A stretch of DNA of 64,000 nucleotides from Candidatus Hebobacterum abditum. Its GTDB lineage: Bacteria; Armatimonadota; Hebobacteria; Hebobacterales; Hebobacteraceae. This document shows, one piece after another, positions 9,015 through 40,581 of this stretch (position 1 is the stretch's first letter; each line of letters starts with the position of its first letter). The DNA lies in NCBI GenBank assembly GCA_029821875.1, contig JALGXW010000002.1:1-64000 (forward strand). The letters run 5' to 3'. Below the pieces are notes generated by a model, which saw nothing but the letters and a program-made list of their open reading frames with translations, ran no database searches and was not told where the DNA came from. The position numbers were made by a program, and so were the translations under genes.

Positions 9015-9866
9015 TCAAAGTGAGGACTCGCCGGCCTCCGTCTGCGTCTCGTCCGGCGAGAGGCCGACGTTCATGCTGCCGGTCCTATAGCCTTCGAGAT
9101 CGAGGGCGACGAAGCTGTATCCCAAATCCTGCAGCTCCCGCACGATGCGAGCGCGGTTCTGGGGCTCGAGGGCGAGGCCGAAGTCGTCCGCGGCGATCTC
9201 GATCCGAGCGATCTCCCCATGGTCTCTCACGCGGATCTGCGCGAAGCCCATACGCCTGAGCACATCTTCCGCCGCGTCGATGCGCCGCAGACGCGCCGGC
9301 GTCAACTCTTCCCCGTAGGGGATCCTGGTGGCGAGGCAGGCATAGGCTGGCTTGTTCCAGGTCGGCAGCCCCAACTCCTCTGAGATCTCGCGGATCTCGG
9401 CCTTGCCCAAACCGGCCCCCCTGAGGGGGCTCCTGATGCCCAGCTCGCGCAGCGCCTGCAGGCCTGGCCTGAAATCGCCGTGGTCGTCGACGTTGGTGCC
9501 ATCGGCGACGATGGACAGGCCCTCCTCCCGAGCGATCTCGAGCAAGCCCGAGAACACGGCGTGCTTGCAGTGGTAGCATCGGTCCGGGGGGTTATGCGCC
9601 ACGCCGGAGAGCGAGAGAGGATCGACTTCGACGACTCGGTGGCGCGCGCCTATCTCGCCGGCCAGGCACTTCGCCTCCTCGATCTCGAACCGAGGGTGGA
9701 TGACGGATGTCGCCGTCACGCCGAGGGCCCGCTCGCCGACCGCCTCCACGGCGGCCCTCAACACCAGCGTGCTGTCGACGCCACCGGAGAAGGCCACAAG
9801 GACCCCCCCGGCATCCGCCAGTAGCTGCTTCAGCTCGGTGTATTTGCCCTGCAGTTCTGGCCGCAC
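9015..9866 (-). CDS. larE: LarE-like ATP-dependent sacrificial sulfur transferase
   Basis: PP-loop ATP pyrophosphatase related to LarE, which adenylates and then sulfurates a pyridinium dicarboxylate during nickel-pincer cofactor synthesis, giving up a cysteine sulfur. The 283 residues carry the PP-loop SGGVDST at 27-33, CYHC at 97-100 and YACLATR with Cys177, closely matching the position of the sacrificial Cys176 of Lactobacillus LarE. The GTG 9866 start has GGAGGT six bases upstream; the in-frame ATG at 9995 would lie upstream of the predicted promoter. LarB, LarC and LarA are not in the window, so the cofactor assignment is by family only. A related sulfur-insertion role is possible. Confidence 0.8.
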   Translation of the reverse strand: MRPELQGKYTELKQLLADAGGVLVAFSGGVDSTLVLRAAVEAVGERALGVTATSVIHPRFEIEEAKCLAGEIGARHRVVEVDPLSLSGVAHNPPDRCYHCKHAVFSGLLEIAREEGLSIVADGTNVDDHGDFRPGLQALRELGIRSPLRGAGLGKAEIREISEELGLPTWNKPAYACLATRIPYGEELTPARLRRIDAAEDVLRRMGFAQIRVRDHGEIARIEIAADDFGLALEPQNRARIVRELQDLGYSFVALDLEGYRTGSMNVGLSPDETQTEAGESSL

Positions 9867-31863: not shown

Positions 31864-32169
31864 CTAGCCCTCCGCGCCGTCTTCGGGCCACATAGTGAGC
31901 TGGCCCCGCGACTGCTCGCGGAGAGCGCGCTGATGAGCCTCCCTTGGGGGAAGGCCCCCCTGGCGATAGGTCCAGATGGCCTTAACGAGCTCGAGCTGCC
32001 CTGTCGTGTAGAGATTCCGCTCAACCTTGCCGTGACGTTGCTTGATAGGGCGAATGTAGCCGCGCTGCTCCAGGTAGTAGACATGCTCCTTGGTCATACC
32101 CGGGCAGCTTGCCAGTAGGTCGGCCATCGGGTGGAGATCGCTCAGGGCCTCGCGCACGGCGGCCCCCAC
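31864..32169 (-). CDS. MerR-like winged-helix DNA-binding protein
   Basis: A 101-residue protein with a MerR-type helix-turn-helix: GMTKEHVYYLEQRGYIRP followed by RNLYTTGQLELVKAIWTYRQGGLPPREAHQRAL. It lacks the long effector domain of full MerR proteins, so the ROK-like protein encoded next may supply ligand sensing. GTG 32169 has no Shine-Dalgarno, and a downstream ATG is possible. Two copies of TGTGCACC upstream (32178-32185 and 32233-32240) are candidate operators. Confidence 0.7.
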   Translation of the reverse strand: MGAAVREALSDLHPMADLLASCPGMTKEHVYYLEQRGYIRPIKQRHGKVERNLYTTGQLELVKAIWTYRQGGLPPREAHQRALREQSRGQLTMWPEDGAEG

Positions 32170-32721
32170 TTATGCATATGTGCACCCTCGCCCCAACATC
32201 ATACAGCCTCCCATAGGCGTCGTCAAGGCTTTTGTGCACCAAAATTCGTCTCAGGTGACGACGCTCATGGCTGCTGACACGGCCGGCAAACGCGGCCCCC
32301 TCCACGATGTTGCCGACTGGCGACTGCTGGTGTAAGCTTCTCAGCGATCGCGCGCCGCGGCGGACCTCATGCAGACGAAGCCTCTGACCTCGGTGCATCC
32401 TGCGGTAGTGGCAGTGGCTCTCATACGGTCGGTGCTGGTGACTCCATGCGAGCTCGTCGGCCTATGGGAAGCCAGCGGTGGCCCGGGCACCAGTGACGGC
32501 AAGGGGCCAAGGGTGACACTCAGATCGTATGTTGTTCCCAACCACGGATGTCTCGAGCTTCTCGCAGATAGGACGTGGCGGGACGAGGTCGGCCAGCCTC
32601 CCAAGGAACTGCCGCCCACCATCGCGTTGACACCGCACCGTGGGAACACGGCGTGAGCTAGGAATGGCGGCCACCTCTGCCGAAGAGTGTATGTCGGGCC
32701 CGTGGAGCGTTAGCAGCAGCT
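32170..32721. other. 552-bp gap, no supported gene
   Basis: Contains the TGTGCACC repeats near the merR-like start. Opposing ORFs at 32369-32656 (+) and 32341-32649 (-) lack Shine-Dalgarno sites. The plus frame has a hydrophobic N-terminus and an LVGLWEAS...LELLADRTW stretch that faintly resembles small lipocalin-like secreted proteins; it may be a degraded gene. No RNA gene is recognised. Confidence 0.4.
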
Positions 32722-33678
32722 ATGGGGAACAAGCGCGCGAGCCGCTCCCGCTGCGGTGTCTACGATTGCAGCGGGTGTGGTCTCTATCTGGCAGACCGGT
32801 GTCCTGGGTGCGCCTCCGGCAATCTCCGTTTGTCCCGCGATGGCGGCGAGGAGTGTCTAGTCTACGGGTGTGTTCGGGAGCAGGACATCGCGGGCTGCTT
32901 CGAGTGCGAGCTGTCCCTGTGCAAGCTGGGGAGTTGGCCCCCGACAGGGTGCCCCCTGCGCGAGCGCTTTGGCGGAGAGGAGCTCGGCGAGGCGTTCCAC
33001 CGGCAGCTGGAAGTGACGAAGGGCGTCGCCACCGGGCGTGGTCTCGGCATAGACCGCTCTGAGCCGAGAACGCTGCGACTGCGCGAGTACCTGCAGGTGG
33101 TGCACGACTTCGCGCGCCGCAACGTTGCGACTATGTCGTCTCACCACCTGGCCCGATGTGTTGGCGTGAGGGCGAGTCTGGCGCGGCGCGATTTGTCGGA
33201 GCTCGGGCACCTTGGCACGCCGGGACGTGGCTACTCCGTGTCGGCCGTAGGCGCGGCGTTGCGGGAGAGCCTGAGTCTTGGCCCGCGCCGCTCTGCCATC
33301 TGGCTGGGTGGAGCTCGGCAGGCCGGCGACAAACATGTGGCCGAAGCGCTGGAGATCGTCAACTGCATTCTGGTAGGGATCTTCGATGATGACAGCGAAG
33401 CTCAGCAGGTGGCCGGTATCGCCGTGCGGCCGTTGGCAGAGGTGGCGGCCGCGGCGAACACCGCAACCGTAGCCATCCTCGCAAACGAAGCAGCGACGGA
33501 ACCGGAAGTGCTGCGAGGACTCGCGGAGGCCGGGATAGAGGCCGTGCTCAATCTGACGCCTGTGCGGCTGGACGCCTCGGCGAAGGTGATCGTGGAGCAA
33601 GCGGACCTTGGCAGCCAGCTGCTGCGCCTGCTGTCGCGGTTGACGGGCCCCGGGGCAGGACGGGCCGGGCGAGAGTGA
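32722..33678 (+). CDS. Rex-like redox regulator fused to N-terminal Cys-rich (DUF3795-like) domain
   Basis: A 318-residue fusion. Residues 1-~80 hold 11 cysteines in a DUF3795-like arrangement (CGVYDCSGCG, CPGC, CLVYGCV, CFECELSLC). From ~115 the protein follows Rex: a winged helix (VSSHHLA-type, ASLARRDLSELGHLGTPGRGYSV), a Rossmann region and the closing segments AGIEAVLNLTPVRLD and DLGSQLLRLL. The dinucleotide glycine motif GxGxxG is altered to GARQAG, with Arg for the second Gly, so NAD(H) binding may be lost or changed. The Cys-rich part could hold zinc or an Fe-S cluster. The receiver gene overlaps or abuts the 3' end. Confidence 0.78.
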   Translation: MGNKRASRSRCGVYDCSGCGLYLADRCPGCASGNLRLSRDGGEECLVYGCVREQDIAGCFECELSLCKLGSWPPTGCPLRERFGGEELGEAFHRQLEVTKGVATGRGLGIDRSEPRTLRLREYLQVVHDFARRNVATMSSHHLARCVGVRASLARRDLSELGHLGTPGRGYSVSAVGAALRESLSLGPRRSAIWLGGARQAGDKHVAEALEIVNCILVGIFDDDSEAQQVAGIAVRPLAEVAAAANTATVAILANEAATEPEVLRGLAEAGIEAVLNLTPVRLDASAKVIVEQADLGSQLLRLLSRLTGPGAGRAGRE

Positions 33679-34131: not shown

Positions 34132-35130
34132 ATGGCCGGCATGAGGGCCATGGTGCTGGCCGCGGGCATAGGCGAGCGAATGCGGCCGCTCACCGATCAT
34201 GTGCCCAAGCCACTGCTGCCGATTGCCAACCGGCCCGCTATGGGGTATGTTCTCGAACACCTGGGTCGGCACGGCTTCACCGAAGTCATCGCCAATCTCC
34301 ACTATCGTCCTGAGGAGATCGTCGATCACTTTGGCTCTGGCGGCGAGTACGGGGTCAGCCTGACGTACAGCTACGAGGAAGAGCTGTTGGGGCCTGCTGG
34401 CGGGGTCCGCCACTGCAAAGACTTCCTTGGCGGCGAGACCTTCCTTGTCACGGGTGCGGACGACCTCACCTCGATGGATCTGACGGCACTGCTGGCCGCG
34501 CATCGAGACGTCGGGGCCATGGCCAGCATAGCACTGGTGGAGGTCGAGGAGACATCGGAATACGGAATCGTGGTGACCGACAACGCGGGCCGGATCGACC
34601 GTTTCGTCGAGAAGCCCAAGGGTGAGGCCCCGAGCCGGACCGCGAACACGCAGATATACCTCTTCGAGCCGGACGTCTTCGAGTTCATACCCCCCGACCG
34701 CTTCTATGACTTCGGGTTCCATGCTTTCCCCGCCATGGTCGAGGCAGGCGTGCCCTTCTACGGCTTCTCTCTCGACGGGTACTGGCGCGACATAGGGACC
34801 ATCCAGGACTACCTCGCGGCGCAGAGAGATGTGCTCGAAGGCAGGCTGCCGGCGTCGATCGGCGGCCGGCAGTTGACTCCAGGGGTCTGGATGGGAGACG
34901 GCTGCGACATAGACGATTCCGCCGAACTCCTGGCGTCGGTGCTCCTGGGCGACGGCTGTCGGGTCGGGGCGAAGGCCAGGCTGGGCGGCGGGACGTGCGT
35001 CGGAGCCGACGCGGATGTCGGCGAAGAGGCCGAGGTGTGGGAGAGCGTAGTCTGGCCGGGAGTGCCGGTGCCCCCCCGCGCGAAGCTGCAAGGCGCTGTG
35101 GCGACCGCCGGCGGAATCTTCCGCGGGTGA
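34132..35130 (+). CDS. Nucleotide-sugar pyrophosphorylase (NDP-hexose type)
   Basis: A 332-residue nucleotidyltransferase that activates a sugar 1-phosphate with NTP. The N-terminus has the signature VLAAGIGERMRPLTDHVPKP, with the metal Asp in TGADDL and EKPKGE later. The C-terminus is a short left-handed beta-helix (hexapeptide repeats such as ADADVGEEAEVWESVVWPG). The layout resembles GDP-mannose or glucose-1-phosphate pyrophosphorylases, but substrate cannot be set. It follows the receiver gene by four bases. Confidence 0.88.
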   Translation: MAGMRAMVLAAGIGERMRPLTDHVPKPLLPIANRPAMGYVLEHLGRHGFTEVIANLHYRPEEIVDHFGSGGEYGVSLTYSYEEELLGPAGGVRHCKDFLGGETFLVTGADDLTSMDLTALLAAHRDVGAMASIALVEVEETSEYGIVVTDNAGRIDRFVEKPKGEAPSRTANTQIYLFEPDVFEFIPPDRFYDFGFHAFPAMVEAGVPFYGFSLDGYWRDIGTIQDYLAAQRDVLEGRLPASIGGRQLTPGVWMGDGCDIDDSAELLASVLLGDGCRVGAKARLGGGTCVGADADVGEEAEVWESVVWPGVPVPPRAKLQGAVATAGGIFRG

Positions 35131-35326: not shown

Positions 35327-35554
35327 ATGCCAGATAAGGGAGCAATGACCGTCCGCGAGGCCGGCCGGAAGGGCGGGCGCGCAACAAAGGCCCGGCACGG
35401 CCCGGAGTTCTACGAAGCCATCGGCCGCAAGGGTGGCGAGACCACCAAGAAGAGGCACGGCCCCAAGTTCTACGAGCGTATCGGCCGCAAGGGGGGCCAG
35501 CGAGTGCGACAGCTCGTGCAGCAGGCGAAGCGGGCGCAGCGCGGAGGCAGCTAG
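35327..35554 (+). CDS. KGG-repeat (general stress protein-like) small basic protein
   Basis: A 75-residue, Lys/Arg/Gly-rich protein built from three short repeats, each containing GRKGG and (for two) an RHGPxFYE unit (15-20-residue period). This is the KGG/stress-induced motif of YciG and GsiB-like hydrophilin-type proteins, linked in other bacteria to stationary-phase or desiccation stress. ATG 35327 follows GGGAGGTGAG. It has its own promoter and a strong terminator, so it is an independent transcription unit. Its function here is inferred from the family. Confidence 0.85.
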   Translation: MPDKGAMTVREAGRKGGRATKARHGPEFYEAIGRKGGETTKKRHGPKFYERIGRKGGQRVRQLVQQAKRAQRGGS

Positions 35555-35583: not shown

Positions 35584-35617
35584 GAGCAGCAAGCGTTCTT
35601 CCGCTTGCTGCTCTTTC
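35584..35617. terminator. Strong terminator after the KGG-repeat gene
   Basis: A perfect 12-bp stem (35584-35595 with 35602-35613), a 6-nt loop and a short T-rich tail on the plus strand. It lies between convergent genes and may also end the secretin operon transcript. Confidence 0.8.
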
Positions 35618-37334
35618 AATGGGTCGCCTCAACCGGGGTCAGGAAGCGCTCGCGGATCCGCTGCTCCTCCTCGGCGTCTGGAAGGCGGCCCTCGGGCGTG
35701 AGGATGTGAGGCGTGACGAAGATGACCAGCTCGGAGTTGACGACCGACCGACTGCGACTCCGGAACAAGCCACCGATCAACGGTATGTCGCCCAGGACCG
35801 GGATCTTCGTCCTTCTATCTTCAGTCTGCTGCTGACTCAACCCGCCGATCATCAGAGTCTCGCCGTCTTTGAGTCGCACCGTCGTGCCCGCCTGGCGCGT
35901 CCTCAAGACCGGCAGCCCCGTCTCGGGATCGACCTCCGAGATGTTGCTTACCTCCGTGCTGTCCGGGTCGATGTTGAGCGTGATCTCGCCGCCGCCGCCG
36001 GTCAGCGGAGTCACCCGCAACTTCACGCCCACATCCACTCCCTGTATCTTCTCGACGGGCTGACCGTAGGTGATGTACTCAACTATAATAAAGCGCCGTA
36101 CACCGATGAATACGTCCGCGGGGTGGCCGTTCATGACGGCCATTCGGGGCGCGGCGCGTATCTGAGCGCGCTGCTCTGTCTCCAGTGCGCGGATGCGGGC
36201 CTCGAAGTCATCGGGCAGTTCGCCTATGTTCGAGTAGGAGACCTGGCCCGCGCGGGAATCGCTTGTCGCGGAGAACTCGGGTTCACCTTCCTCGTTGGTC
36301 TCGCCGGTCAGGTCTCCCCGAAACAGCTGGGTCACCACGTCGAGGTCCTCTGTGTCTGCGAACTCAACGGCCATGACCTCGATGAGGATCTGAGGAGGGG
36401 CCACGTCGACCGCGCGCAGGTCTGCCTCGATCTTGTCCAGCATCTGCTGTGGTGCCGTCACGACGACCGCATTCTGCTCCTCGTTCACGTGCAGGTAGCT
36501 GTACAGGAAAGTCGGCAGGAGGCCCGAGGCATCCTTGGCGCGGGTGTATCGCATCGGGAAGGACGTCGTCCCGCTGAGCCGGTAGGCGGCGAGATCCTGC
36601 GGGACGCCGCGGCTAAACATGTAGACCCCCTCCACTTCGCTGAGCGCCAGCCCGTAAGCGCTGGCGATGGCCCTCAGCATGCCGTCGACCGTCATGTCTT
36701 CCAGGTGGAGGTTGGCCTCCGCCTTCACCGCGTCATCGACGGCGAGATTGGTGCCGCTCTCGGCCGCAATCTCCCCCAGCACTTCCTGGAGGTCTGCCTT
36801 CACGGCCAGGACAGAGACGAGACCGTCAGCGTAGGACACCGAAAGCTCTGTCTCCTTCTTCTCGGCCTCCTCCTCCTCGCCGGCTTCCTCCTCCTCGACA
36901 CCCTCCAGCGTGCGGCTGCTCCTCACCGTGATGATGTAGCTCTGGCGGTCCGTGCTGGAGTTCGCGCGGACGCTCGATGGCTCCACCATGACGATAACCA
37001 TCTCGACGCCTACTCCCTCCTCTGCATCCTGGGGAGTCGTGAGCTCGATGTGGCTCACCGGGAACTTGCTGACATCGATGAAGTTCTGTCCGGTCGCGTT
37101 GCGCGCGTTGTAGAAGTCCAGTTTGTAGCGGTGTCCATCCTCCTCGTGTTCTCTATAGCCAAGGTTCAAGATGCCGTCTGCCTTGACCGTGATCTGCACC
37201 CCGTTGCGGAGCTGCTTGACGTCTATCTCAGTGATGTTGCAGTACACGCGCGCTTGCGCCGGCATCGCTGCCAGCAGCATAGCCATGACTGCGGCGGCGA
37301 TACAGCGAAGCAGACGGCAGGCTGTGCTAGCCAT
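35616..37334 (-). CDS. AMIN-domain secretin (third gene of secretin operon)
   Basis: A 572-residue outer-membrane secretin. After a signal peptide (~1-28), an AMIN-like domain (about 30-130, VYCNITEIDVKQL opening) probably binds peptidoglycan. An acidic Glu-rich linker, STN/N-domain (LVSVLAVKADLQEV) and a secretin C-domain follow, ending with KIPVLGDIPLIGGLFRS and ELVIFVTPHIL. ATG 37334 follows GGAGG and overlaps the previous stop by 8 bp. Secretins form the outer-membrane ring of type II, III and IV pilus systems. No inner-membrane or ATPase partner is in the window. Confidence 0.9.
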   Translation of the reverse strand: MASTACRLLRCIAAAVMAMLLAAMPAQARVYCNITEIDVKQLRNGVQITVKADGILNLGYREHEEDGHRYKLDFYNARNATGQNFIDVSKFPVSHIELTTPQDAEEGVGVEMVIVMVEPSSVRANSSTDRQSYIITVRSSRTLEGVEEEEAGEEEEAEKKETELSVSYADGLVSVLAVKADLQEVLGEIAAESGTNLAVDDAVKAEANLHLEDMTVDGMLRAIASAYGLALSEVEGVYMFSRGVPQDLAAYRLSGTTSFPMRYTRAKDASGLLPTFLYSYLHVNEEQNAVVVTAPQQMLDKIEADLRAVDVAPPQILIEVMAVEFADTEDLDVVTQLFRGDLTGETNEEGEPEFSATSDSRAGQVSYSNIGELPDDFEARIRALETEQRAQIRAAPRMAVMNGHPADVFIGVRRFIIVEYITYGQPVEKIQGVDVGVKLRVTPLTGGGGEITLNIDPDSTEVSNISEVDPETGLPVLRTRQAGTTVRLKDGETLMIGGLSQQQTEDRRTKIPVLGDIPLIGGLFRSRSRSVVNSELVIFVTPHILTPEGRLPDAEEEQRIRERFLTPVEATH

Positions 37335-39027
37335 GGACACTACCTCCTGAATCGTCGGCGTCGGGGCGGATTATGTGGGACGTCACGAAGAACGCAAGCC
37401 GGGTGTGCGAGCGAGTACGATCGACCGACCGGAACAGTCCCCCGATGATCGGCAGGTCTCCGAGAATCGGTATCGAGCGCTCCTGCTCGTCCTCCGACTC
37501 GCTCACGATTCCACCGAGCACGATGGTCTGGCCATCCCTAATGCGCACGGTCGCGCCCGCTCTGCGCAGACCCACTATGGGAAGGTCGGTTCTGGGATCT
37601 CTCCCGCGCAGCGTCCGTGCGACCACGCCCAGGCCGAGAATGACCTCGTCCCCCCTCCCCACCAGGGGCTGCACCGAGATGAAGCTGGTCGTCCAGGCCG
37701 ATCCGAGATAGGCCTCCACGAACGACTCCTCCACGTACTCGAAGATGACGAAGTACTCCTCGCCGGCGCCGATGAACGCGTTGTGACCGTTGAGGACGCG
37801 AGCGGAGGCGCGGCTTATGAGCTTGGTGGATGTGTCGGTCTCCACGTTGTTCAGCACGGCCGCCCAGCCCTGCGGCAGCCCCTCCAACCAGAGGAAACCC
37901 AAGTCACCCGTCAGGGAATCGAGCGCGGCACCGAAGTCGCCGAGGTAGCGCTCGAGCTGCAGGGCACGCGCCAGGTCGTGACCAGAGGTGTACTCCACCG
38001 TGACAACTTCCACCAACACCTCTGGTGAGGGCACGTCGAGCTTCGCCAGGTCTTCGGCCACCCGATCGGCGAGAGGACCAGGGCCCGTGACGACGATGGA
38101 ATTCGAGCCCTCGTCCGGACGTAGGTACTGCATCAAGAAGTTCGGCAGGAGATCTAGCGCATCCACCGCTCGCAGATACTTCAGCTGCACGCGTCGCGAC
38201 TCGCCCGCGCCATAGGCGCCGGCAGAGCCGGTTGGGGCCGCTATGACCCATCTCCCGCCCGGCAGGCTCTGAGTGCAGAGCCCACAGCCGGTCGCGATGG
38301 CATCCAGTGCCGTCGCCGGCGAGACGTCCCGCAGGCAGAGACTGACCCGAATGTCATCCTCGGCGGGCGAGGTGACACTGAGCCCCGCCTCGCGGCCGAT
38401 AGCGTTCGCCAGATCGTGCAGCCTGACATTGACTGCTCGAATCGTCAGCAAGCCGTCGCGCTCCTTGACCTCCAGCTCCGTCGGCAGGTCTGCGGGCGTC
38501 TCCGGGGATGGCGCAGGCGGGAAGCGATCGGACTCCCACAGAATGACAATGCTGCTGCGATCCTCGCTGGACATCAGCCACCAGTCGCCGCGCCAGCGCT
38601 CGAACCGCCCTTCACCTGTTATCAACCCGAGGTAATTGACGACATCGACCCCCAGGCCCACACCCTCCTCGGCCCATTCGGGGATCCTGATCTCAACGTG
38701 GCTCACCGGGTACTTGTTGATCGGGATGAAAGCCGAGCCGAGCTTGGAGCGCGCGTTGTGGAGCCGAAGCGAAAGTCGGCGGAACTTCTCGGTGATACGC
38801 AAGCCGCCTCCCTCGTATTCGCGGAGTGCTCCTTCCTCAATCAGCCGCTCGAAGTCCCATCCCCAATGCAGCTCCCCGTCGGCCTCTATGGTCACCCGCA
38901 CGCCGTTGCTGAGCTGCTCTGACGTTACCGCAGTGACGTTGCAGTAGACGGTCCCGCGCTGCGCCCACGCAGGCCCAGCTCCGGCCGCCATCGATGCCAG
39001 AATCAGCAGGGGAAGGGCGTGGCGCAT
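37327..39027 (-). CDS. AMIN-domain secretin (second gene of secretin operon)
   Basis: A 566-residue secretin with a signal peptide at about 1-23 and an AMIN domain (VYCNVTAVTSEQLSNGVRV) closely parallel to its downstream neighbour. STN (LLTIRAVNVRLHDL) and a secretin domain ending SIPILGDLPIIGGLFRS complete the order. The N-terminal domain is the more divergent part relative to the other copy. Its start lies three bases after the stop of the first secretin, and it overlaps the next gene by 8 bp, so all three should be translated together. Confidence 0.9.
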   Translation of the reverse strand: MRHALPLLILASMAAGAGPAWAQRGTVYCNVTAVTSEQLSNGVRVTIEADGELHWGWDFERLIEEGALREYEGGGLRITEKFRRLSLRLHNARSKLGSAFIPINKYPVSHVEIRIPEWAEEGVGLGVDVVNYLGLITGEGRFERWRGDWWLMSSEDRSSIVILWESDRFPPAPSPETPADLPTELEVKERDGLLTIRAVNVRLHDLANAIGREAGLSVTSPAEDDIRVSLCLRDVSPATALDAIATGCGLCTQSLPGGRWVIAAPTGSAGAYGAGESRRVQLKYLRAVDALDLLPNFLMQYLRPDEGSNSIVVTGPGPLADRVAEDLAKLDVPSPEVLVEVVTVEYTSGHDLARALQLERYLGDFGAALDSLTGDLGFLWLEGLPQGWAAVLNNVETDTSTKLISRASARVLNGHNAFIGAGEEYFVIFEYVEESFVEAYLGSAWTTSFISVQPLVGRGDEVILGLGVVARTLRGRDPRTDLPIVGLRRAGATVRIRDGQTIVLGGIVSESEDEQERSIPILGDLPIIGGLFRSVDRTRSHTRLAFFVTSHIIRPDADDSGGSVHG

Positions 39028-39030
39028 GCC

Positions 39031-40428
39031 TCAGCTGTCCTCCAGGAAGCGCTCGCCCAGCTCTTGATCCTCGTCGCCGAGGGGCTGCCCTTCATTTAAG
39101 ATCACACGCGGAGTGATGAATATCACGAGGTCCGTATGGATGGTCAACTCGGAGCTGGAGCGGAACAGGTTTCCGATTATCGGGATGTCTCCGAGGACCG
39201 GAACCTTGGTGCGGATCTTCCGCTGCTCTTCCTCGCGAAGGCCTCCGATCACAATCGTCTGACCGTTTCGCACCCGGACCATGGTGTCTGCCGTTCGAGT
39301 GATCTTGTCCGGAAGGCCGGTCACCGGGTCCAGGGCCGTCAGGGTGGACACCTCCGGGGTGATACTGCAGATGATCTCCTTGCCGTCCCCCGTCCACGGG
39401 CGCACGACAAGCCGGACGCCAGCGTCGATGAAGTTCTGCGTCATATACTCCTGCACTTCGACCGGCTGGCGGAGGTATCGTTGAGTCCCTACGAAGAAGC
39501 TGGCGTAGCGGCCGCTGACGGTTGCGATCCTCGGCGCCGCGCGCACGTTCGCTTGGCGGGAGGCGACGAGAGCCTCCAGCCTTACACGGAACTCCGTTGG
39601 CAAGTCCGCTACTCCCCGAAGGATGAGCTCTCCCATCGTGCGCGCAGGGAGCGCCGAATCGGCAGGCGCCAGATCCAGCGTGCCCCACTCTGCCCCTCGA
39701 CCGGCATTGTGCCACCGGATGGCGAGATTGCGCTCTGCGGAATACCAGTCGGTGAACTCGACGACGAGGATTTCGAGCATGATCTGCGCGGCCGGCGTGT
39801 CGAACTGCCGGATATCCTCCTCGAACTTCTCGAGCACATCAGTGGGAGCAGAGAGGACGACCGCGTTCTGCCCGTAGTTCACCTTCACGTGGTCCTGGAG
39901 GAAGACAGGCAGCAGCCCCTTGGCGTTGTTCGCCTGGACATACTGCGTCGGTATCGATTTGATGTCGCTCAGCAAATAGGAGGAGGGCTTGCGCGGGATG
40001 CCTTCGGAGATCATGTGGATGCCGTCGACGCACTTGCACGAGAAGCCATAGGCCGAGACTACGTAGCTGATTACCTCCTCGGGCGACATGTCGGCCAAGT
40101 GGACCGTGACCTTCCGGTCCTTAATCGCGTCATCGACGATGAGCTGTAGGTCGGTCTTCTCTGCCAGCCGTGTGAAGAAACGATGAGCGTGCACGTTGAC
40201 CGCGTGCACCGTTACTCCGCTGGGGTAGACGGTGATGTCGGGCTCCGGCGCCTCGGCCTTGCCCTCCTCTTCGTCGCCCTCGGATTCCTGCTCTGTGCCC
40301 TCTCCCTCCGCGGCCTCATCGCCGCTCGCTGGATTCGCCAGCGCTGGCGACGCCGTCGCGCAGAGCGCAACCGAGATCAGCAGAAGTACGAGGAGCAGGA
40401 TTGTCTGCCACAGCGAAGTCTTGACCAT
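39031..40428 (-). CDS. Secretin without AMIN domain (first gene of secretin operon)
   Basis: A 465-residue secretin. Following a hydrophobic signal segment (~4-30) there is an acidic low-complexity linker, then an STN domain (VTVHAVNVHAHRFFTRLAE), N1 domain (PTQYVQANNAKGLLP) and the secretin C-domain with KVPVLGDIPIIGNLFRS and DLVIFITPRV. There is no AMIN domain, unlike the next two copies. ATG 40428 follows GGAGGCGAGC; an in-frame ATG at 40479 is less well placed. This is the first gene of the three-gene set. No pilotin or pilus genes flank it. Confidence 0.9.
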   Translation of the reverse strand: MVKTSLWQTILLLVLLLISVALCATASPALANPASGDEAAEGEGTEQESEGDEEEGKAEAPEPDITVYPSGVTVHAVNVHAHRFFTRLAEKTDLQLIVDDAIKDRKVTVHLADMSPEEVISYVVSAYGFSCKCVDGIHMISEGIPRKPSSYLLSDIKSIPTQYVQANNAKGLLPVFLQDHVKVNYGQNAVVLSAPTDVLEKFEEDIRQFDTPAAQIMLEILVVEFTDWYSAERNLAIRWHNAGRGAEWGTLDLAPADSALPARTMGELILRGVADLPTEFRVRLEALVASRQANVRAAPRIATVSGRYASFFVGTQRYLRQPVEVQEYMTQNFIDAGVRLVVRPWTGDGKEIICSITPEVSTLTALDPVTGLPDKITRTADTMVRVRNGQTIVIGGLREEEQRKIRTKVPVLGDIPIIGNLFRSSSELTIHTDLVIFITPRVILNEGQPLGDEDQELGERFLEDS

Positions 40429-40581
40429 GCTCGCCTCCGATCCGTACACAGACTGGGGAAACCTGTGGGTATAGGGCACGGCACCCCTATGCCTTAGACG
40501 CGTCTCGTACCGAAAACGTCGCGGGAAAGGTGAGTGCAGGCTGGCCCGCGCGCCGATGCCGCCTGCAGGCGACGCGGCATT

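Follow-up and report, generated by a model that had tools for sequence, protein, structure and literature searches.

RESULTS

A Rex-type protein with an added Cys-rich domain

In a 64,000-nucleotide stretch of DNA from Candidatus Hebobacterum abditum, here called the window, we find a gene that probably encodes a redox switch with a new sensor. The reading we prefer is that of a Rex-derived repressor whose NADH/NAD+ switch has been replaced by a putative Cys-cluster sensor (Fe-S or Zn), and we put its probability slightly above even, at about 0.52. We favor a redox switch because the fusion recurs across Armatimonadota, often beside haem and cytochrome genes. Judged by sequence, the product is a Rex-type DNA-binding protein with a Cys-rich domain added at its N-terminus. 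The features of the gene and of its immediate neighbors are listed in Table 1.

TABLE 1 Domains of the fusion and the two genes that follow it, in window coordinates
Feature	Coordinates	Strand	Basis
DUF3795-Rex fusion gene	32722..33678	+	One ORF, 318 aa; Pfam and NCBIfam matches; 15 further intact orthologues/paralogues
Cys-rich DUF3795-like domain, residues 9-80, 11 Cys	32746..32961	+	Cys conservation (n=16); DUF3795 matches
Rex winged helix-turn-helix, residues 117-187	33070..33282	+	PF06971, E 1.3e-7; invariant R155, D157, L158, S159, G170
Recognition helix, about residues 151-160	33172-33201	+	Inside the Rex winged helix-turn-helix
Rex Rossmann domain, residues 188-290	33283..33591	+	Residues 114-309 match Rex; the predicted model matches Rex in Foldseek
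Site of lost GxGxxG, W194-L-G-G-A-R-Q-A201	33301..33324	+	Alignment with ordinary Rex
C-terminal helix, residues 296-307	33607..33642	+	Predicted helix; occupies the place of the Rex domain-swapped dimer helix
Lone receiver, 150 aa	33675..34127	+	PF00072, E 2e-23; GTG start overlaps the stop codon of the fusion
Sugar nucleotidyltransferase	34132..35130	+	PF00483, E 5e-54; same place in G000, G001, G002, G003

The original prediction described a Rex-like regulator that keeps the Rex helix-turn-helix, and both parts held up. The Pfam model of the Rex DNA-binding domain, PF06971, matches residues 118-159 of the window protein above its cut-off (E 1.3e-7) and is present in all 16 fusion members. 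Nine NCBIfam Rex models cover residues 114-309 with a best E of 4e-27; all nine stay below their naming cut-offs, the best scoring 95.1 bits against 126. The confident sequence matches in the PDB are to Rex only, and a profile match to Rex reaches E 4e-49. An AlphaFold2 model built on the 16-row alignment reached a pLDDT of 77.7 and a pTM of 0.60, and its block means lie between 86 and 94 over residues 181-280 and between 64 and 85 over residues 11-80. When this model was submitted to Foldseek, every one of the 39 PDB matches at E ≤ 0.001 was a Rex. The helix at the C-terminus lies where Rex has the domain-swapped helix with a role in the dimer (PMC8063818). Comparison of the window gene with that of its nearest relative (G001) gave a dN/dS of 0.18 for the Cys domain, 0.30 for the winged helix, and 0.23 for the Rossmann domain; with values this low in all three, no part of the fusion resembles a decaying remnant.

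Loss of the NAD(H) residues and retention of the DNA-contact residues

Aligned to Thermus Rex and to ordinary Rex of Armatimonadota, the fusion reads A-I-W-L-G-G-A-R-Q-A-G under V-V-I-V-G-A-G-N-L-G-S. In this register G196 of the window protein is the first Gly of GxGxxG, with Ala198 and Ala201 at the positions of the second and third. It had been claimed that GxGxxG is altered to GARQAG, with Arg at the second Gly. Those letters are indeed there, at residues 197-202, and the motif has truly been lost, to a greater extent than claimed, but the register was one residue off: Ala198 stands in for the second Gly, and Arg199 falls at a variable position.

We judged the NAD(H) pocket by residues alone, comparing 16 fusions with 18 unfused Rex after setting aside a degenerate unfused row (L013). 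The first Gly of the motif is kept in 16/16 fusions. The second and third, Gly89 and Gly92, are each found in none of the fusions and in all 18 ordinary Rex. Ala94 and Tyr98, which touch the nicotinamide end in Rex (PMC8063818), are present in 1/16 and 0/16 fusions, compared to 18/18 and 17/18 ordinary Rex, while a Trp at position 85 occurs in every fusion and in no ordinary Rex. Tyr98 also belongs, with Arg16 and Asp188, to the switch of Thermus aquaticus Rex (PMC6125430). Arg16 is kept in 3 and Asp188 in 11 of the 16 fusions, but we give these two little weight, since they vary in ordinary Rex as well; Thermotoga maritima Rex, for example, has Met at the position of R16 (PMC6125430). A motif search found GxGxxG in 34 of 36 unfused Rex genes and in none of the 16 fusions, so the case that the original prediction had named as telling against it, in which homologues keep GxGxxG and the Cys-rich part is a protein of its own, did not appear. 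Neither of the two unfused genes lacking the motif, L079 (G056) and L087 (G041; identical to L013), has a DUF3795 domain.

The residues that meet DNA tell the opposite story. R46, D48, L49, S50, and G61 (Rex numbering) are invariant in the 16 fusions, and position 47 is K or R in 15. In the Streptococcus agalactiae Rex-DNA complex (PMC8376106), bases are contacted by two adjacent Arg, at 46 and 47, to which R46 and position 47 of the fusions presumably correspond by alignment. The fusion shares with Rex of Streptomyces, Bacillus, and Thermus (PF06971 and PF02629) a winged helix whose invariant recognition residues are the same, along with a Rossmann domain and a C-terminal helix; unlike them, it is without GxGxxG and the Ala94/Tyr98 contacts, carries the added Cys-rich domain, and sits on its own branch. 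At the level of aligned residues, the fusions have lost the NAD(H) residues and retained the DNA-contact residues.

What the Rossmann domain now does is the point at issue with the chief rival, in which the altered pocket would bind something else (a different nucleotide, CoA compound, or metabolite), with the Cys domain serving as an accessory site for metal. The domain is modeled at high confidence and is under purifying selection. Besides the first Gly and the new invariant Trp, the Asp that ends its second strand is kept in 13/16 fusions, and the pocket is also altered in the two unfused relatives. CoA_binding matches 14 of the 16 members at E ≤ 0.01 (the window protein, at E 0.017, is below cut-off). 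However, CoA_binding is what Pfam calls this shared fold, and the model matches Rex generally, selection could preserve the fold just for dimerisation, and the former motif loop varies freely except for Trp85 and the first Gly. On balance, we consider a new ligand in the old pocket rather unlikely.

The Cys-rich domain

An 11-Cys, DUF3795-like domain with CxxC pairs had been proposed in front of the Rex part. The 11 Cys, CxxC pairs among them, lie in residues 11-77, but the DUF3795 match is below threshold: on the window protein alone, PF12675 covers residues 10-68 with an E of 0.006 and 17.5 bits against a curated cut-off of 22.6. Since 9 of the 16 fusion members match at E ≤ 0.01 (best 4e-4), we file the domain as DUF3795-like. 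The Cys pattern is common to the DUF3795 family and the fusion N-domain; the family is without known function, and in the fusion it is joined to a DNA-binding protein. The window's genome also encodes one stand-alone DUF3795 protein above the cut-off (L073:1456-1872).

Eight Cys (C11, C19, C30, C45, C50, C59, C62, and C67) are invariant across the 16 fusions, and C16, C27, and C77 are nearly so. No solved structure in the PDB resembles the Cys domain by sequence, and modeled alone, it reached a pLDDT of only 50.6, too poor for the Cys to be paired. From their conservation, these Cys could hold a cluster and are equally compatible with Zn, and metal binding by the domain is probable. We mildly prefer Fe-S to Zn as the putative ligand because of the anaerobic hosts and the electron-transport neighbors. 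In Fe-S transcription factors such as IscR, NsrR, RirA, FNR, and SoxR, a Cys-ligated cluster controls a DNA-binding domain. The principle we propose is alike, but this is an analogy only; we found no homology to the fusion, whose DNA-binding domain is of the Rex type and whose cluster is proposed.

Distribution and descent

The original prediction suggested looking for the fusion in related genomes. Searching 61 genomes of Armatimonadota produced full-length homologues in five families, and a search of 291 genomes of the phylum, in which the N-domain alone matched 16 genomes, added two more. Spread over these seven families are 16 intact fusion genes in 14 genomes, with two each in G012 and G015; G234, G239, and G240 are also among the carriers. 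Because conservation of both the Cys and the altered motif extends over 16 intact genes and dN/dS against the nearest relative is low in every domain, the fusion is not a product of chance. A contig artefact is likewise ruled out by the 16 genes in 14 genomes, and five of the contigs are also in the species collection. The copy in G005 is frame-broken (L044; G005:C257:15714-16327), a pseudogene or an assembly error, and G248 has just a short broken match. When the Hebobacteria profile was run against 84,980 species, a search that reaches close relatives only, all genes returned were of the Hebobacteria type; a plasmid search gave one partial Rex match. Candidatus Hebobacteria, the class of the nearest relatives, was described from anoxic marine sediment (PMC10290634).

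We built a maximum likelihood tree, with the motif columns removed, of 27 ordinary Rex, 16 fusions, and the two unfused degenerate genes. A branch with support of 98/100 separates the ordinary Rex from the fusions plus L079 and L087, with the caveat that two long branches meet within the fusion side. As read from this tree, the fusions share common descent apart from ordinary Rex. The two unfused genes (L079:1297-1953 in G056:C161 and L087:4476-5201 in G041:C37) are possibly intermediates, or fusions minus the Cys domain. Since they too are without the motif, its loss does not require the Cys domain, and they may suggest that it was lost before the fusion arose.

Most genomes with the fusion also carry an ordinary Rex; the window's own has two Rex-type genes, of which one is the fusion and the other an ordinary Rex (L002). 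G015, which is 98% complete, has two fusions (C68 and C26) but lacks any further PF06971 gene, so in this genome the fusions take the place of ordinary Rex.

Operator-like sites and the adjacent receiver

We scored upstream regions against TTGTGAANNNNTTCACAA (maximum 14) and counted sites at ≥11/14. The regions upstream of the fusions total 151, whereas dinucleotide shuffles give 131 (sd 3.1) and not one among 200 reached the observed score; the excess is confined to loci outside Hebobacteria. Five sites lie at fusion loci: G012 (TGGTGAAATTTTTCACGA), G023 (TTGTGTCCCTTTTCACAA), and G056 each have one ahead of the fusion gene, and G056 has two more ahead of its multihaem cytochrome gene. At the same threshold, no Rex-type site precedes the Hebobacteria fusion genes and none occurs within the 64-kb window, nor did we find a conserved operator in the Hebobacteria fusion promoters. 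Streptomyces Rex footprints stray about as far from the consensus (PMC5355995). Because ordinary Rex could also be what binds here, the sites indicate a Rex-type protein but not which one. Elsewhere, L087 has a 13/14 operator match 147 bases upstream, and the window's genome holds one perfect and one one-mismatch Rex operator core 195 bases apart (L105 and L107; G000:C91:80321-80336 and 80516-80531), upstream of another response-regulator receiver gene (L105:1897-2337).

Two neighbors had been pointed out, a lone receiver and a sugar nucleotidyltransferase. The receiver directly follows the fusion in seven Hebobacteria genomes and is a conserved, constant partner; the nucleotidyltransferase adjoins but is common to only four. 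Several other features mark the region. A small MerR-like gene (31864-32169, minus strand) and the ROK-family gene that follows it are both divergent from the fusion; directly preceding the start of the MerR-like gene is a 13-base AT-rich block, TTATGC[A/T]TATGTG (32170-32182; TTAAGCATATGTG in G006), conserved in five Hebobacteria. On the other side are a small KGG-repeat (stress-type) protein (35327-35554, plus strand), near the fusion in six Hebobacteria genomes, and three consecutive, mutually similar genes resembling secretin of the GspD type (35616-40479, minus strand), found beside the fusion-receiver region in several Hebobacteria.

Could the fusion be a partner or antagonist of ordinary Rex? 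It would then share the operator, compete or form mixed dimers, and its Cys domain would be a structural Zn domain or a surface for binding proteins such as the receiver. Both proteins are present in most genomes, the operator-like sites are of the Rex type, and a candidate signaling partner is encoded alongside in the seven Hebobacteria and in G240, where a response regulator and a histidine kinase precede the fusion. Yet G015 manages with two fusions and no ordinary Rex, and the Hebobacteria fusion promoters are without a Rex-type site. We regard this explanation as improbable.

Haem and cytochrome neighbors

Outside Hebobacteria, the fusion is often found next to genes of haem synthesis or multihaem cytochromes. 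It is followed by hemA, a multihaem cytochrome, and ResB in G012 and, by homology, in G010; by hemB in G023; and by cytochrome c554 and a multihaem cytochrome in G015, whose second fusion copy is downstream of a multihaem gene. In G056, a multihaem gene is nearby on the opposite strand. In G234, the fusion comes after a HydG-like radical SAM gene, a lyase, HydF (Pfam), and a HydE-like radical SAM gene, where we take HydG and HydE to be such from domain, gene order, and our own reading. The order in G012 and G010 resembles that in Streptomyces, in which rex is cotranscribed with hemACD (PMC5355995).

Such neighbors occur at 6 of 10 fusion loci outside Hebobacteria, compared to 1 of 18 unfused loci (p 0.003); counting the Hebobacteria loci as well gives 6/16 against 1/18 (p 0.03). 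The p values flatter the haem link, since the genomes are related rather than independent and neither set was a random sample. Among the unfused controls, the first ten loci had no hemA, hemB, or multihaem gene, and eight more gave the single case (L120, G234). Multihaem genes are present in 9/9 fusion-side genomes outside Hebobacteria versus 5/10 other genomes.

Within Hebobacteria, a haem link is unsupported: hemA was not detected in 5/8 genomes, some of which are incomplete. We also considered a palindrome at the promoter of the window genome's own hemA-multihaem cytochrome operon (L096:6800-6870; G000:C85, palindrome 9836-9866). This block, in which TTGACAATTTGTGCGATTTGGTACAAACT comes ahead of an inverted repeat of 13 bases, CTACTGCGTAGT..ACTACGCAGTAG, is nearly unchanged in G001 while its flanks are not. 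It is present at a single place in the genome, and we could not connect it with the fusion.

With hemA, hemB, and multihaem cytochromes adjacent and Cys-Pro pairs in many members, the Cys domain might be thought to bind haem itself and control its supply. But the Cys-Pro pairs are not invariant across the 16 fusions, and Hebobacteria such as G002, G003, and G007 keep the fusion with no hemA detected, which makes a haem sensor very unlikely.

DISCUSSION

According to our preferred reading, a dimer of the fusion would bind DNA through its conserved winged helix, in relatives at the Rex-operator-like sites. The signal would enter through the N-terminal 11-Cys cluster, most likely as a bound Fe-S cluster and less likely as Zn. 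A change in the cluster would alter the dimer, formed by the Rossmann fold and the C-terminal helix, and DNA binding would be released or tightened. Targets outside Hebobacteria would probably be genes of haem synthesis and multihaem cytochromes c, and [FeFe]-hydrogenase maturation in one genome; in Hebobacteria, the fusion is co-encoded with the lone receiver. We infer the dimerisation, the DNA and metal binding, the direction of control, and the signal. More tentative, and to us somewhat doubtful, is the fuller version: a Rex-derived class in Armatimonadota whose NADH switch has given way to an Fe-S or other Cys-ligated DUF3795-type sensor and which controls haem, multihaem cytochrome, and hydrogenase genes.

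Several points count against the replacement of the switch by a Cys-cluster sensor. The Cys domain could be structural, the operator-like sites could belong to ordinary Rex, Hebobacteria, the window's class, have neither such a site nor a haem link, and two unfused relatives are also without the motif. Were the protein an ordinary, NADH-sensing Rex tolerant of its unusual motif, the Rex homology throughout, the D188 of 11 fusions, and the variable R16 would fit, but the loss of two motif Gly and of Tyr98 in all 16, the deep branch, and the ordinary Rex alongside in most genomes make this highly improbable.

We found no literature joining DUF3795 and Rex or describing such a fusion, in a search whose coverage leaves out most subscription journals. 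Rex is a standard textbook example of an NADH sensor, and proteins with Rex domains are routinely annotated that way; a Rex paralogue without the NAD(H) site across seven families is a warning against this practice. The fusion would be a natural experiment in how a repressor can change its signal and yet retain its DNA-binding domain, and G015, with no other Rex DNA-binding domain, is a good test case for the replacement of ordinary Rex. DUF3795, a family with scant literature, gains a testable role as a sensor domain. If the reading of an Fe-S or other Cys-ligated sensor is true, this would be, to our knowledge, the first function for DUF3795 and the first Rex to sense something other than NAD(H).
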